DNA of 37,920 nt from Herpetosiphonaceae bacterium (GTDB lineage Bacteria; Chloroflexota; Chloroflexia; Chloroflexales; Kallotenuaceae). The translations under genes were made by a program, and so were the position numbers. This document shows, piece by piece, positions 20,513 through 24,335 of this stretch. The stretch spans positions 1 to 37,920 of the forward strand of contig JACDGP010000046.1 of assembly GCA_013821605.1 (NCBI GenBank), written 5' to 3'. Each line of letters starts with the position of its first letter. Position 1 is the first letter of the stretch. The notes below the pieces were generated by a model that worked only from the letters and a program-made list of their open reading frames with translations, did not search any database and was not told the DNA's origin.

Positions 20513-21595
20513 CTACTTGGCTGAGGCGTGCAGCTTGGCGATGATGGCATCGGCCATTTGCGAGGTACCAACGGCCGTTGGATCGTCGCGATTGGGCTTC
20601 ATATCGTAGGTCACATCCTTGCCTTCTTCGATCACTTCGGAGACAGCGCGCTCTAGGCGGTCGGCGGCATCCATTTCGCCTAGGTAGCGCAGCATCAGCA
20701 TACCGGACAAGATCAGCGCGGTCGGGTTGACCTTATTCTGGCCCTTGTATTTCGGGGCGCTGCCGTGCGTCGCCTCGAACAAGGCACTGTCCTCGCCGAT
20801 GTTCGCACCGGGTGCCACGCCTAAGCCCCCCACCAGACCCGCGCATAGGTCCGACAGGATATCGCCGTAGAGGTTCTCCATGACCATGACGTCGTAGTTT
20901 TCGGGCTTCTGGACCAGCTGCATGCACATCGCGTCTACCAGCCACTCATCATAGGCGACGCGGCCCTCGTACTCCTTGGCAACCTCGCGCGCGACCTCGT
21001 AGAAGAGGCCGTCGGTGTACTTCATGATATTGGCCTTCGCGACGGCCGTTACTTTTTTGCGATTGTTGGCGAGGGCATATTCAAAGGCATGCTTGACGAT
21101 ACGATGCGAGCCGGTGCGCGAGATCGGTTTGATCGAGATCGCGGCATCGTCGCGGATCTTGCCGGCACCCATGGCGATGATTTGCTTGGCTTCGGCACTA
21201 CCGATGGGAAATTCCACACCCGCATACAAATCTTCGGTATTTTCGCGCACGATCACCAGATCAACATTCTGGTAGCGCGAGCGCACGCCGGGATAGGACT
21301 TGCAGGGTCGCACGCAGGCGAAGAGGTCAAGCTCTTTACGCAACGCCACGTTGACCGAACGAAAGCCAGTACCAATCGGCGTCGTAATCGGTCCTTTGAG
21401 CGCCACTTTGTTTTTGCGAATACTTTCCACAACATTAGGCGGCAACGGTGTGCCCGCCGTTTCCATGATATCGACGCCCGCCTCGACCACATCCCAGTTA
21501 AACTCTACGCCGGTTCCTTCTAGGACGCGGCGGGTTGCTTCCACCAGCTCCGGACCGGTGCCATCGCCACGAATCAAGGTTACGTTATAGGCCAC
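20513..21595 (-). CDS. Isocitrate/isopropylmalate-family dehydrogenase, probably NAD-type isocitrate dehydrogenase
   Basis: 360 aa beta-decarboxylating dehydrogenase. Seen: N-terminal [10 protein letters not shown], the substrate-binding loop with three Arg ([17 protein letters not shown] and [12 protein letters not shown]), the metal-binding Asp region [11 protein letters not shown], and the coenzyme loop [36 protein letters not shown] is more like NAD-dependent isocitrate dehydrogenase than LeuB, and no leu genes are adjacent. Homoisocitrate or isopropylmalate use cannot be excluded. The start is a GTG with AGGAGGG 4 nt upstream, and a good promoter lies about 30 bp further up. Confidence 0.88.
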
Positions 21596-21624: not shown

Positions 21625-21654
21625 ATTCTACTCGTGAGAGTGGGATGCGTCCAA
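21625..21654 (-). promoter_or_regulatory. Sigma-70-type promoter for the dehydrogenase
   Basis: On the minus strand, -35 TTGGAC (21649-21654) and -10 TAGAAT (21625-21630) are separated by 18 bp. Transcription would start about 20-25 nt before the GTG start at 21595. Confidence 0.6.
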
Positions 21655-21672
21655 CGGATCCCTCACCCCCCG

Positions 21673-21699
21673 CCCCTCTCCCAGTGCGCGGGAGAGGGG
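21673..21699. repeat. Dispersed-type GC hairpin (CCCCTCTCCC...GGGAGAGGGG)
   Basis: A perfect 10-bp stem with a 7-nt loop, preceded by CCTCACCCCCCG. Elements with this wording are known to me as dispersed intergenic repeats in many bacteria, including Chloroflexota. It lies directly upstream of the dehydrogenase promoter. Confidence 0.55.
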
Positions 21700-21716
21700 A
21701 ATGATGATCCGCGATT

Positions 21717-21896
21717 CATTGCTAGCAATGGGAAATTGGGGTTGAGAGCATTCCGCATTGGGACGGGATAAATGGCACTTTGGGAGCAATGAATAACAAT
21801 GTCCCATGCTTGTTCTTTCATTGCTCTTTAAGCAAAAAAGCAATGAAAGAACAATGCGATAACAATGATTTAACAACGTGATCAATGGGAGCAATA
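21717..21896. repeat. Cluster of AGCAATG / CATTGCT palindromes
   Basis: A 14-bp perfect palindrome CATTGCTAGCAATG (21717-21730) is followed by more copies of the heptamer: AGCAATG at 21785 and 21839, CATTGCT at 21819, and AGCAATA at 21890. Additional CAATG words occur at about 21797, 21852, 21863 and 21883. The stretch is visibly AT-richer than the neighbouring genes. It is gene-free and could be a binding-site cluster for a DNA-binding protein or the subterminal part of a mobile element. Confidence 0.6.
21810..21854. repeat. Perfect 16-bp inverted repeat with 13-nt loop
   Basis: TTGTTCTTTCATTGCT (21810-21825) and its exact reverse complement (21839-21854) flank an A-rich loop. No T-tract follows on either strand and no gene ends here, so a simple terminator is unlikely. 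The arm contains the AGCAATG heptamer of the surrounding cluster. Confidence 0.7.
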
Positions 21897-21927
21897 GCGA
21901 GCCGGTGGTGCAAGAATAGCCTCTTCG

Positions 21928-22052
21928 TGTTACACGATTCCACACGTTTTGTTACAGTTCCCGTTCAGTTTGTTACATGTAACAGGGAATTTGTTACAGT
22001 TGAACGAGATTTTGTTACATGTTACACGCGTTTTCGATATTCCTTGTTACAC
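21928..22052 (+). repeat. Iteron-like array of six TGTTACA direct repeats, about 21-bp period
   Basis: TGTTACA begins at 21928, 21950, 21971, 21992, 22013 and 22045. The first five are spaced 22, 21, 21 and 21 bp. From the second copy on, most are preceded by TT (consensus TTTGTTACA). The third copy forms the palindrome TGTTACATGTAACA, and a partial copy (GTTACA) sits at 22021. The spacing equals two helical turns, so all cores face the same side of the DNA. The 14-bp interiors differ, which rules out CRISPR. The pattern fits replication iterons, a multi-site transposon end (5'-TGT) or an operator array. Confidence 0.75.
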
Positions 22053-22131
22053 GTTCTCCGGACGAGGTATGGTACGGGCGACCAAGTCGGCAACAAGTGG
22101 GGTGGATTATACCACAAATACCCCGAAAATG

Positions 22132-22166
22132 CGAACGTATGTTCTAAGGGACCGGGGCGATATAAT
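22132..22166 (+). promoter_or_regulatory. SOS-box-like site CGAACGTATGTTC over a promoter
   Basis: CGAAC-GTAT-GTTC (22132-22144) fits the Gram-positive LexA consensus CGAACRNRYGTTC. It covers the -35 position of a perfect TATAAT at 22161-22166 (17 bp after TATGTT). Transcription would run rightwards into a hairpin-rich segment and antisense to the broken NTPase gene. Which LexA site this organism uses is unknown from the window. Confidence 0.4.
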
Positions 22167-22316: not shown

Positions 22317-24335
22317 CTATGCCCGATTTCGGAATTGCAGGATCCGTTGATCTCCGGGCGCAATCGCTAGAGATCTCGTCCGCACCTGTATTGCTGACCG
22401 CAGATCCATGAAGCCGTCGTGACTGTCTCCGCTTTGGAGACGGAGCACATTACACCTCATTAGCGCGCTGCCTTTGTTGTTGTGGGCATCCACATCATCG
22501 GGGACACGGGAGAGGGCAGCATCATAAGCCTTGATAGCAGCCGTATAGCTGGCAAGAGCGTCAGCATGCTGCGCTAAACGTGCAAAATACTGGCCCTCTG
22601 AGTTTGATGCATATCCTCTGGAAAAATCATTATTGATCTGCAGTTCTTGCTGCACTTCCAGCAGCAAGCCACACAGTCCATACTGGCTCAACTCGAGTGC
22701 TTTGTCGAATACCGCTACCCATTCGTTGACACCGCGTTGCCAGTCGAGGCGGTTGATATGGTAGACGACCTCCGCAATCGCGTCTTGATTCCCTGCAGCA
22801 ACCTGTTGCCGGTAATAATCCTCCAAGGCTACGTGTGAATCGTGCAGGACCTCTTGGGCATCTTCGCGTTCCGCTAACAGCCGCCGAAGCAGCGCATGGA
22901 CGCGGAACCACTGCTCTCCGCGTTCACGGGCGGCATGCCACATAAATGAAAATCCGGTCAACACCTCAAATGCGGGCCGGGTCGCAGACGCTAGCCTTGG
23001 ATTCTGCTGAAGTGCACGATACGTTTCTTCGCTAAAGGCGCGGCATGCACTCAGGGCGATGACGGCCCGTTTCACCTCTACATCCACGTACCGTAGGAGC
23101 CGGTCGATCAAGATGCGACCCTTGTCCTCGTGGTGTTCTTCAGCTTGAAAATCTTCGGGACGGGGCTGCTTGCCATCGCGCTGGGCCGCCCGTATGACAT
23201 CGACACACAAGCCTAGGTACTGTGGATGAATTTGGTCCCCCGACGCGGGCATATTCGCGCAGGCATTCTTGCATCTCAACCGTACCAACCTTGGCACTTG
23301 CGAGGTAGCGTAGGGCGTATGCGTCAGTAAGATGCTCAACCGGCACTAGTTCGACATATTCCTTGGGAATTTTCGCAGGATATGCCACTGACCAACGCGG
23401 GGGCTCGCGTCCTGCCACGATGACCACGATGCCGTACTTCGGCTCCAGCGACGCGAGCAGACAGCGCAACCATTCGTCGCGTTGGTAAATTCTGTCGCCG
23501 GCCAGTTCTCGTGTTGCCCGGTCGCCCCATAACGATTCATGCGTATCGAAAAACAAGACGACGCGGGGCGGTGCTCCTTCGTCGCGCATGGCAGCATTCA
23601 AATCCTCGGCAAACAGTTCCGGTAATTTAGCCACCAGTTCGCGCTCCGGGTCCAGCCGCATGATCTCCGCCACTCGCTCCTTATTCAACCCGCGTTTCTG
23701 TAGCCAGATCGTCCACTTCTCATTAACGGGCCACCCAAGGTATTTATTGCCCTCGACCAGCACCGCCTTGATGACCGCTCCAACGGCTGTCGTGTGCCCT
23801 AGGCTCAGCCCCAAATCGACTACCGCCGCTACCAAATCCATCTCTTCCGCCGGCAGCAGTGCCTTTAGCTTCTCGCTGTTCAGCCCCCCAGTATGCTGGT
23901 AATACAATAAGCACGCGAAATCGAACAACGGAACCCGTAAACCATGCCCCGCTAGTCCGCGCCGCAACTGTAACAGCCCTGGCAGCGCCTCCTGGTGACT
24001 CTCGCCCCCTCCCGGCAACGGTGCAAAATCAAGCAGCGCTGATGGTATAGGTACTGCTCCCTCCCCTTCTTCAAAAAACGTGCAAATGCCTCCTCGTCGG
24101 ATGCCTTGATCTCCGTCCACTCGCGCGCCGGGAAACATTTGCAATACTGGGTTCGCAAAAATTCGAGCAGGAGCGATTTACCGTTTCCGCCATCACCATG
24201 AAAAAACAGAACACGGTTTTGTGGCTCGCCATGCAGGTACCTAGCTAGCACTCGTCGTGCGTCGAAGCGATCAACAAATAATTCCAGGGCTGTCGGGCCC
24301 TCGGTAACGCTCTTCGTTTCATCGCGGATCGGCAT
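22317..24335 (-). pseudogene. STAND-like NTPase with C-terminal TPR-like region, broken by two compensating frameshifts
   Basis: Read through, this would be about 672 aa. The N-terminal part carries Walker A GDGGNGKS (in RVLFFHGDGGNGKSLLL), and the middle a Walker B-like VVLFFDTHESLWG. The C-terminal third is helical and TPR-like (ALASYTAAIKAYDAALSRVPDDVDAHNNKGSALM). The frame changes within a G4 run (24063-24066 on the plus strand as C4; one G short) and changes back at a G5 run (23237-23241; one G too many), so the two ends share one frame and about 825 bp between do not. Good local coding sense in all three pieces argues for recent mutation, homopolymer sequencing error or phase variation. 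GGAG lies 7 nt before the ATG. STAND NTPases often act in signalling or phage defence. No effector domain is recognisable. Confidence 0.7.

Follow-up and report, generated by a model that had tools for sequence, protein, structure and literature searches.

A dispersed non-coding element with an apparently SOS-type promoter and two types of phased arrays of putative protein-binding sites in a Herpetosiphonaceae genome

Phased arrays of sites are typical of transposase-binding ends, and at the ends of Tn7 and Mu several direct recognition sites follow each other at distances of about 20-22 bp. Replication iterons are accompanied by an adjacent rep gene and occur as one origin per replicon, and in CRISPR arrays unrelated spacers separate identical repeats that measure about 25-40 bp. 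The BOX repeats of pneumococci are interspersed and modular: their ends are constant, and the array in the middle is optional and varies in number. Effects on the expression of neighbouring genes have been reported for them, and they are over-represented between convergent genes (PMC3049150). Correia elements/NEMIS are small dispersed elements of about 107-155 bp with putative promoters and an IHF binding site (PMC2229807). The published SOS box of Bacillus subtilis is GAACN4GTTC (PMC4234289).

The window, by which is meant the whole stretch of 37,920 nucleotides analysed here, contains a series of TGTTACA repeats in an intergenic region upstream of icd. The six copies which the initial annotation had described there were reproduced exactly, with steps of 22, 21, 21 and 21 bp followed by one of 32 bp (Table 1). 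Two further half-sites had been missed, at 21978-21984 on the minus strand and at 22020-22026 on the plus strand. The first of these completes a perfect 14-bp palindrome, TGTTACATGTAACA, at 21971-21984, and the second forms the direct doublet TGTTACATGTTACA together with the half-site at 22013. The window contains nine TGTTACA where 2.43 are expected (largest shuffle 7), and eight of the nine lie within 125 bp. The claim that the phasing exceeds chance was borne out in the genome as a whole, where TGTTACA-N13..15-TGTTACA had 31 matches at 8 places and the reversed-pattern control had none. The 14-bp interiors do differ from each other, as had been pointed out; alignment of the copies with TGTTACA-type arrays (T-type) added that they are also conserved between copies (GTTCCCGTTCA.., TGTAACA.., GTTGAACGRGATTT). 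With a unit of 7-9 bp and conserved interiors the array is not CRISPR, in agreement with the initial annotation. An array of coding origin was rejected because steps of 7, 10, 20, 22 and 32 bp break any reading frame. The array described there is real, and what had been overlooked is the larger repeated unit around it: the TGTTACA array forms the middle module of a dispersed non-coding element, which extends from about 21717 to 22145 of the window.

Table 1. Position of the element, its modules and the adjacent genes in the window
Feature	Position	Strand	Remarks
Left end, 14-bp palindrome CATTGCTAGCAATG	21717..21730		Conservation in full copies begins here; sequence to the left unrelated; variable in other copies
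CATTG/CAATG module, about 180 bp	21717..21897		Imperfect inverted ends (..GATCAATGGGARCAATR); 39 matches in the genome to R1, a sequence model of the CAATG core
TGTTACA array	21928..22051	+	Direct half-sites 21928, 21950, 21971, 21992, 22013, 22020, 22045; inverted 21978; palindrome 21971-21984
Right-end promoter, leftward	22106..22135	-	-10 TATAAT 22111-22106 after TGTGG; -35 TTCGCA/TCGCAT near 22135-22129; from 32-site consensus and promoter scan
SOS/LexA-like box AGAACATACGTTCG	22132..22145	-	Overlaps -35; pattern GAACATNYGTKY
icd, isocitrate/isopropylmalate-type dehydrogenase	20513..21595	-	PF00180, E 5.7e-104; downstream of element promoter
Native icd -10, TAGAAT within GAGTAGAAT	21625..21630	-	Outside element; similar -10 in relatives L113-L116; from promoter scan
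Broken NTPase/TPR gene, right of element	22317..24335	-	ORFs in overlapping frames, weak TPR matches

The element measures about 430 bases in full, and at least 45 scattered loci in this genome carry all or a large part of it. The eight T-type arrays lie on eight contigs, and their alignment revealed common sequence extending well beyond the array. BLAST with window positions 21690-22160 returned about 40 places in the same genome, and a pattern for the related array type, TTTGGTACA-N11..13-TTTGGTACA, had 40 further matches genome-wide with none in the control. The search for more arrays which the initial annotation had proposed was therefore productive, yielding about 25 array loci (17 copies with TGGTACA-type arrays, here called G-type, and 8 T-type) besides many copies without an array; the complete lack of a second copy, which it would have counted against a transposon end, was not what was found. 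An all-against-all comparison of the flanks showed that homology ends sharply at the element borders and that the flanks are unrelated, with the exception of one duplication and one neighbouring repeat. The duplication, at C191 (L020; 432 bp, 84% identical to the window), comprises the array half of the element and a stretch reaching into the 3' end of the NTPase/TPR gene, and the neighbouring repeat, of the GGGGAGAGGG type, adjoins several copies. A CCCTCTCCCAGTGCGCGGGAGAGGGG repeat borders the element at window positions 21660-21702 and recurs beside L047 and L022, with similar sequences in L061 and L151.

Sequence model R1 gave no match in 81 other genomes of the order, BLAST found the element in none of 20 relatives, and the spaced-pair pattern occurred in 40 relatives as a single, chance-like pair. 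BLAST against plasmids and phages returned no match to the element. A GTDB-wide scan for three phased TTTGKTACA units gave 32 matches which were chance-like or tandem repeats, none of them in a record titled Chloroflexi, and scans of IMG/VR gave 9 and 1 matches. The element is thus probably a lineage-specific interspersed repeat that multiplied in one lineage only.

The order of the parts in the window is CATTG module, short linker, optional array, and constant right end. In one copy (L074) the left end and the promoter are present and everything between them is missing, which amounts to an internal deletion. Within the module CAAYG pentamers follow each other mostly at steps of 11 bp (60 of about 129) or 9 bp (24 of about 129). 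In two copies, L054 (C153) and L072 (C242), an IS110-type transposase gene (that of L054 named by eye) lies within the CATTG module or adjoins it, close to the same stretch of AACAA in both, which gives the module the look of a preferred target. At L152 (C41) and L153 (C239) a short gene, whose product starts with MPFKKGxSGxPKGR, has a ribosome site and start codon (GGAGGATTGCTAACAATG) that coincide in part with the left palindrome, and this overlap may be close to the ancestral arrangement.

The promoter of the right end is directed leftward through array and module. Thirty-two aligned sites gave the consensus TTGnnn-17-TGTGnTATAAT, an extended -10 promoter of the sigma70 type; the conservation of the -10 is partly built in because most of its core was part of the search pattern, which included neither the -35 nor the initial T and G of the extension. 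The -35 of the window copy is weaker than the TTGCAT of other copies. Two promoter types were sorted by eye, and both array types are found with both of them, so either modules have been exchanged between copies or the switch of array type has recurred. In one further copy an apparently DinB-like gene, named by eye, lies between CATTG module and right-end promoter (L045:2140-2980, C133), in the position that a cargo gene would occupy.

Almost all right ends contain a palindromic box, MGAACATNYGTKCT or GCAC-N4-GTGC. The pattern GAACATNYGTKY had 34 matches genome-wide against 7 for the control; about 17 of these places coincide with right ends of the element. The box lies over the -35 in one promoter type and in the spacer against the extended -10 in the other (C93, C202 and C211 were examined as well), its sequence being kept despite the two positions relative to the -10. 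The layout of the second type is also that of the recA promoter of this genome, TTGCGT..CGAACAGACGTGCTATACT, with the box CGAACAGACGTGC inside the same spacer. The box CGAACAGGTGTTC is found near the probable -10 of lexA, AGAACATCTGTACT at imuB, and AGAACATTCGTACT at a stand-alone LexA-domain ORF; LexA is encoded in this genome. Because its GAAC-N4-GTKY box is like those of recA, lexA and imuB, and overlaps the promoter as in the genome's own recA, the right-end promoter looks SOS/LexA-controlled. A 74-aa ORF at L064:973-1197 consists of a LexA DNA-binding domain (PF01726) only and has its own GAACATTCGTAC box.

Steps between TGKTACA units amount to exactly 21 bp in 65 of about 128 cases, followed in frequency by 22, 23, and 10 bp. 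Eighteen of 20 copies have direct repeats of one pure type, against 1.3 expected with letters dealt at random. The copies share common ancestry, so the weight of this purity test is lowered, and the statistics of purity, box and promoter cannot be counted as independent evidence. The inverted half-sites go with the type of the array: TGTAACA occurs 9 times and TGTACCA not once in T-type copies, whereas G-type copies have 2 and 5, respectively (p 0.005), and at least one of the two TGTAACA exceptions in G-type copies sits outside the array. The full 14-bp palindrome consequently changes together with the direct repeats, from TGGTACATGTACCA in the TGGTACA type to TGTTACATGTAACA in the TGTTACA type. 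Such a joint change of direct and inverted half-sites is as expected of protein-binding sites that track an altered specificity. Some T-type arrays still show remnants of TGGTAC at their right border, which suggests that the TGTTACA type is the derived one; the tree of the CATTG module is too weak to decide on single or multiple origin of this type. Directly left of an array-less copy, L062 (C84:10700-11100) contains a second, separate TGGTACA array.

The genes to the left of the copies include nuoA, rsmD, a Uma2 gene, miaB, cysK, and others, several of them named by eye. No common pathway or SOS theme was recognized among them, and no gene recurs beside the copies except Uma2-type genes and a few common families. 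In tandem gene contexts the promoter is co-directional with both neighbours in 22 cases and opposed in 3, according to crude ORF calls, and the left gene is oppositely directed in about 10 copies. At L046, L050, L053, and L058 the left end lies within about 60 bp of the likely start codon, which leaves little room for another promoter. Orientation and short distances fit a promoter reading into the neighbour gene, or selection against antisense reading.

The explanation that best accounts for these data, to which a probability of roughly 0.6 may be assigned, is that of a modular interspersed element with an SOS-type right-end promoter and an array of putative binding sites, where binding and transcription are predicted from the sequence. 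LexA would repress the right-end promoter, and DNA damage would induce a leftward transcript running through the array and the CATTG module and often into the left gene. Half-sites spaced by 21 bp, two helical turns, would present themselves on one face of the helix to a dimeric or oligomeric protein, which when bound could control the passage of the transcript or mobilise the element in trans. The two array types might correspond to two related binders, or to one with shifted specificity. A more far-reaching version, put forward as a tentative suggestion, is that dozens of housekeeping loci received an SOS-inducible promoter with operator arrays through the spread of the element, and that the arrays record a switch of specificity from TGGTACA to TGTTACA with both states present in one genome.

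The strongest alternative, possible and clearly less probable than the explanation just given, is a purely selfish, non-autonomous, MITE-like repeat, in which the arrays would be sites of the mobilising enzyme, the promoter the leftover of a lost gene, and a regulatory role for the neighbours would not exist. It overlaps with the modular SOS-type element since the binder may itself be the mobilising enzyme. Many dispersed copies among unrelated flanks, at least 45 places in all, are as expected of a MITE, and internal deletions, modular recombination, absence from relatives, a location upstream of the native promoter that icd has kept, and the resemblance of the phased arrays to transposase-binding ends point in the same direction. 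Some form of mobility is likely because the copies are dispersed among unrelated flanks. Several observations speak against a MITE-like repeat. K-mer matches (k = 4-9) between left and right flanks were no commoner than after shuffling and gave no target-site duplication, the exact right border being uncertain; convincing terminal inverted repeats of the whole unit were not seen, the right end with its promoter being unlike the left end and imperfect inverted ends being confined to the CATTG module; and no transposase was identified for the element, so that movement is inferred from the dispersal only. In addition, array-less copies too have retained promoter and box, and the orientation is biased towards co-directional genes.

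A structured RNA leader, riboswitch- or sRNA-like, made from the right-end promoter is improbable. The CATTG module is placed between promoter and gene, and that of the window copy folds with a z of about -5, yet it does so on both strands, and across copies folding is equally strong on the two (mean z -2.05 and -2.12); inverted DNA sites account for this better than a working RNA does. The consensus RNA structure is weak and consists mostly of pairing of the module ends, structures vary between copies, and a search of Rfam with the element returned nothing relevant.

One end of a Mu/Tn7-type transposon, which the initial annotation had considered and for which the regular 20-22-bp spacing of direct sites speaks, is very unlikely: the array lies between CATTG module and promoter in all full copies, each locus has one array orientation in the stretches fetched, neither an inverted partner array nor rve/AAA genes were identified in the stretches around T-type copies, and there is no target duplication. 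Iterons of an integrated replicon, also considered there, do not agree with the recurrence of the array at about 25 places, nor with the lack of a recognisable rep gene among the flanking genes examined. An operator array specific to the icd promoter is just as unlikely. The upstream position and the helical phasing are in its favour, and of the cooperative operator proposed initially this phasing, together with the coordinated change of half-sites, holds; the array, however, is part of a dispersed element and not a property of icd, as the same array stands before nuoA, rsmD, a Uma2 gene, and others. Conservation of the array in front of the same dehydrogenase in relatives, named in the initial annotation as support for an operator, was observed in none of four relatives (L113-L116; icd proteins 84-89% identical), where nothing of the element is seen in front of icd. 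Their icd genes lack the array and have their own -10 beside the gene, like that at 21625-21630 of the window, so the element was added upstream of a native promoter which was kept, and icd need not depend on it.

Should the proposed steps be correct, numerous unrelated genes would have come under the DNA-damage response through a non-coding repeat, which would be a clear natural example of promoters spread by repeats. With the two array types side by side, about 25 natural loci are available for identifying the DNA-binding protein and for following the change of its recognition site. The searches made, which covered open-licence papers, turned up no interspersed repeat described as having an SOS-type promoter, and to our knowledge no such promoter is known in BOX.

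The element is thus best read as a BOX/Correia-like interspersed repeat with a putative SOS-type promoter and two kinds of arrays of putative protein-binding sites. In its organisation it shares with BOX the modular layout, the constant ends and the optional middle array, whereas it favours the 5' side of co-directional genes instead of the space between convergent ones. Like Correia elements/NEMIS it is dispersed and promoter-bearing with putative protein-binding sites; it differs from them in its length of about 270-430 bp, in the phased arrays, and in lacking terminal inverted repeats of the whole unit and a target duplication. Its direct sites have a spacing similar to those in Tn7/Mu ends, but the array is internal and the partner array, target duplication and transposition genes of such elements were not found. 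The right-end box, finally, has the GAACN4GTTC form of Bacillus subtilis SOS operators and resembles the boxes of the genome's own recA, lexA and imuB; since the box overlaps the extended -10, GTGC or GTGT frequently forms its 3' half, and unlike the B. subtilis operators the box belongs to a dispersed element that lies upstream of unrelated housekeeping genes.
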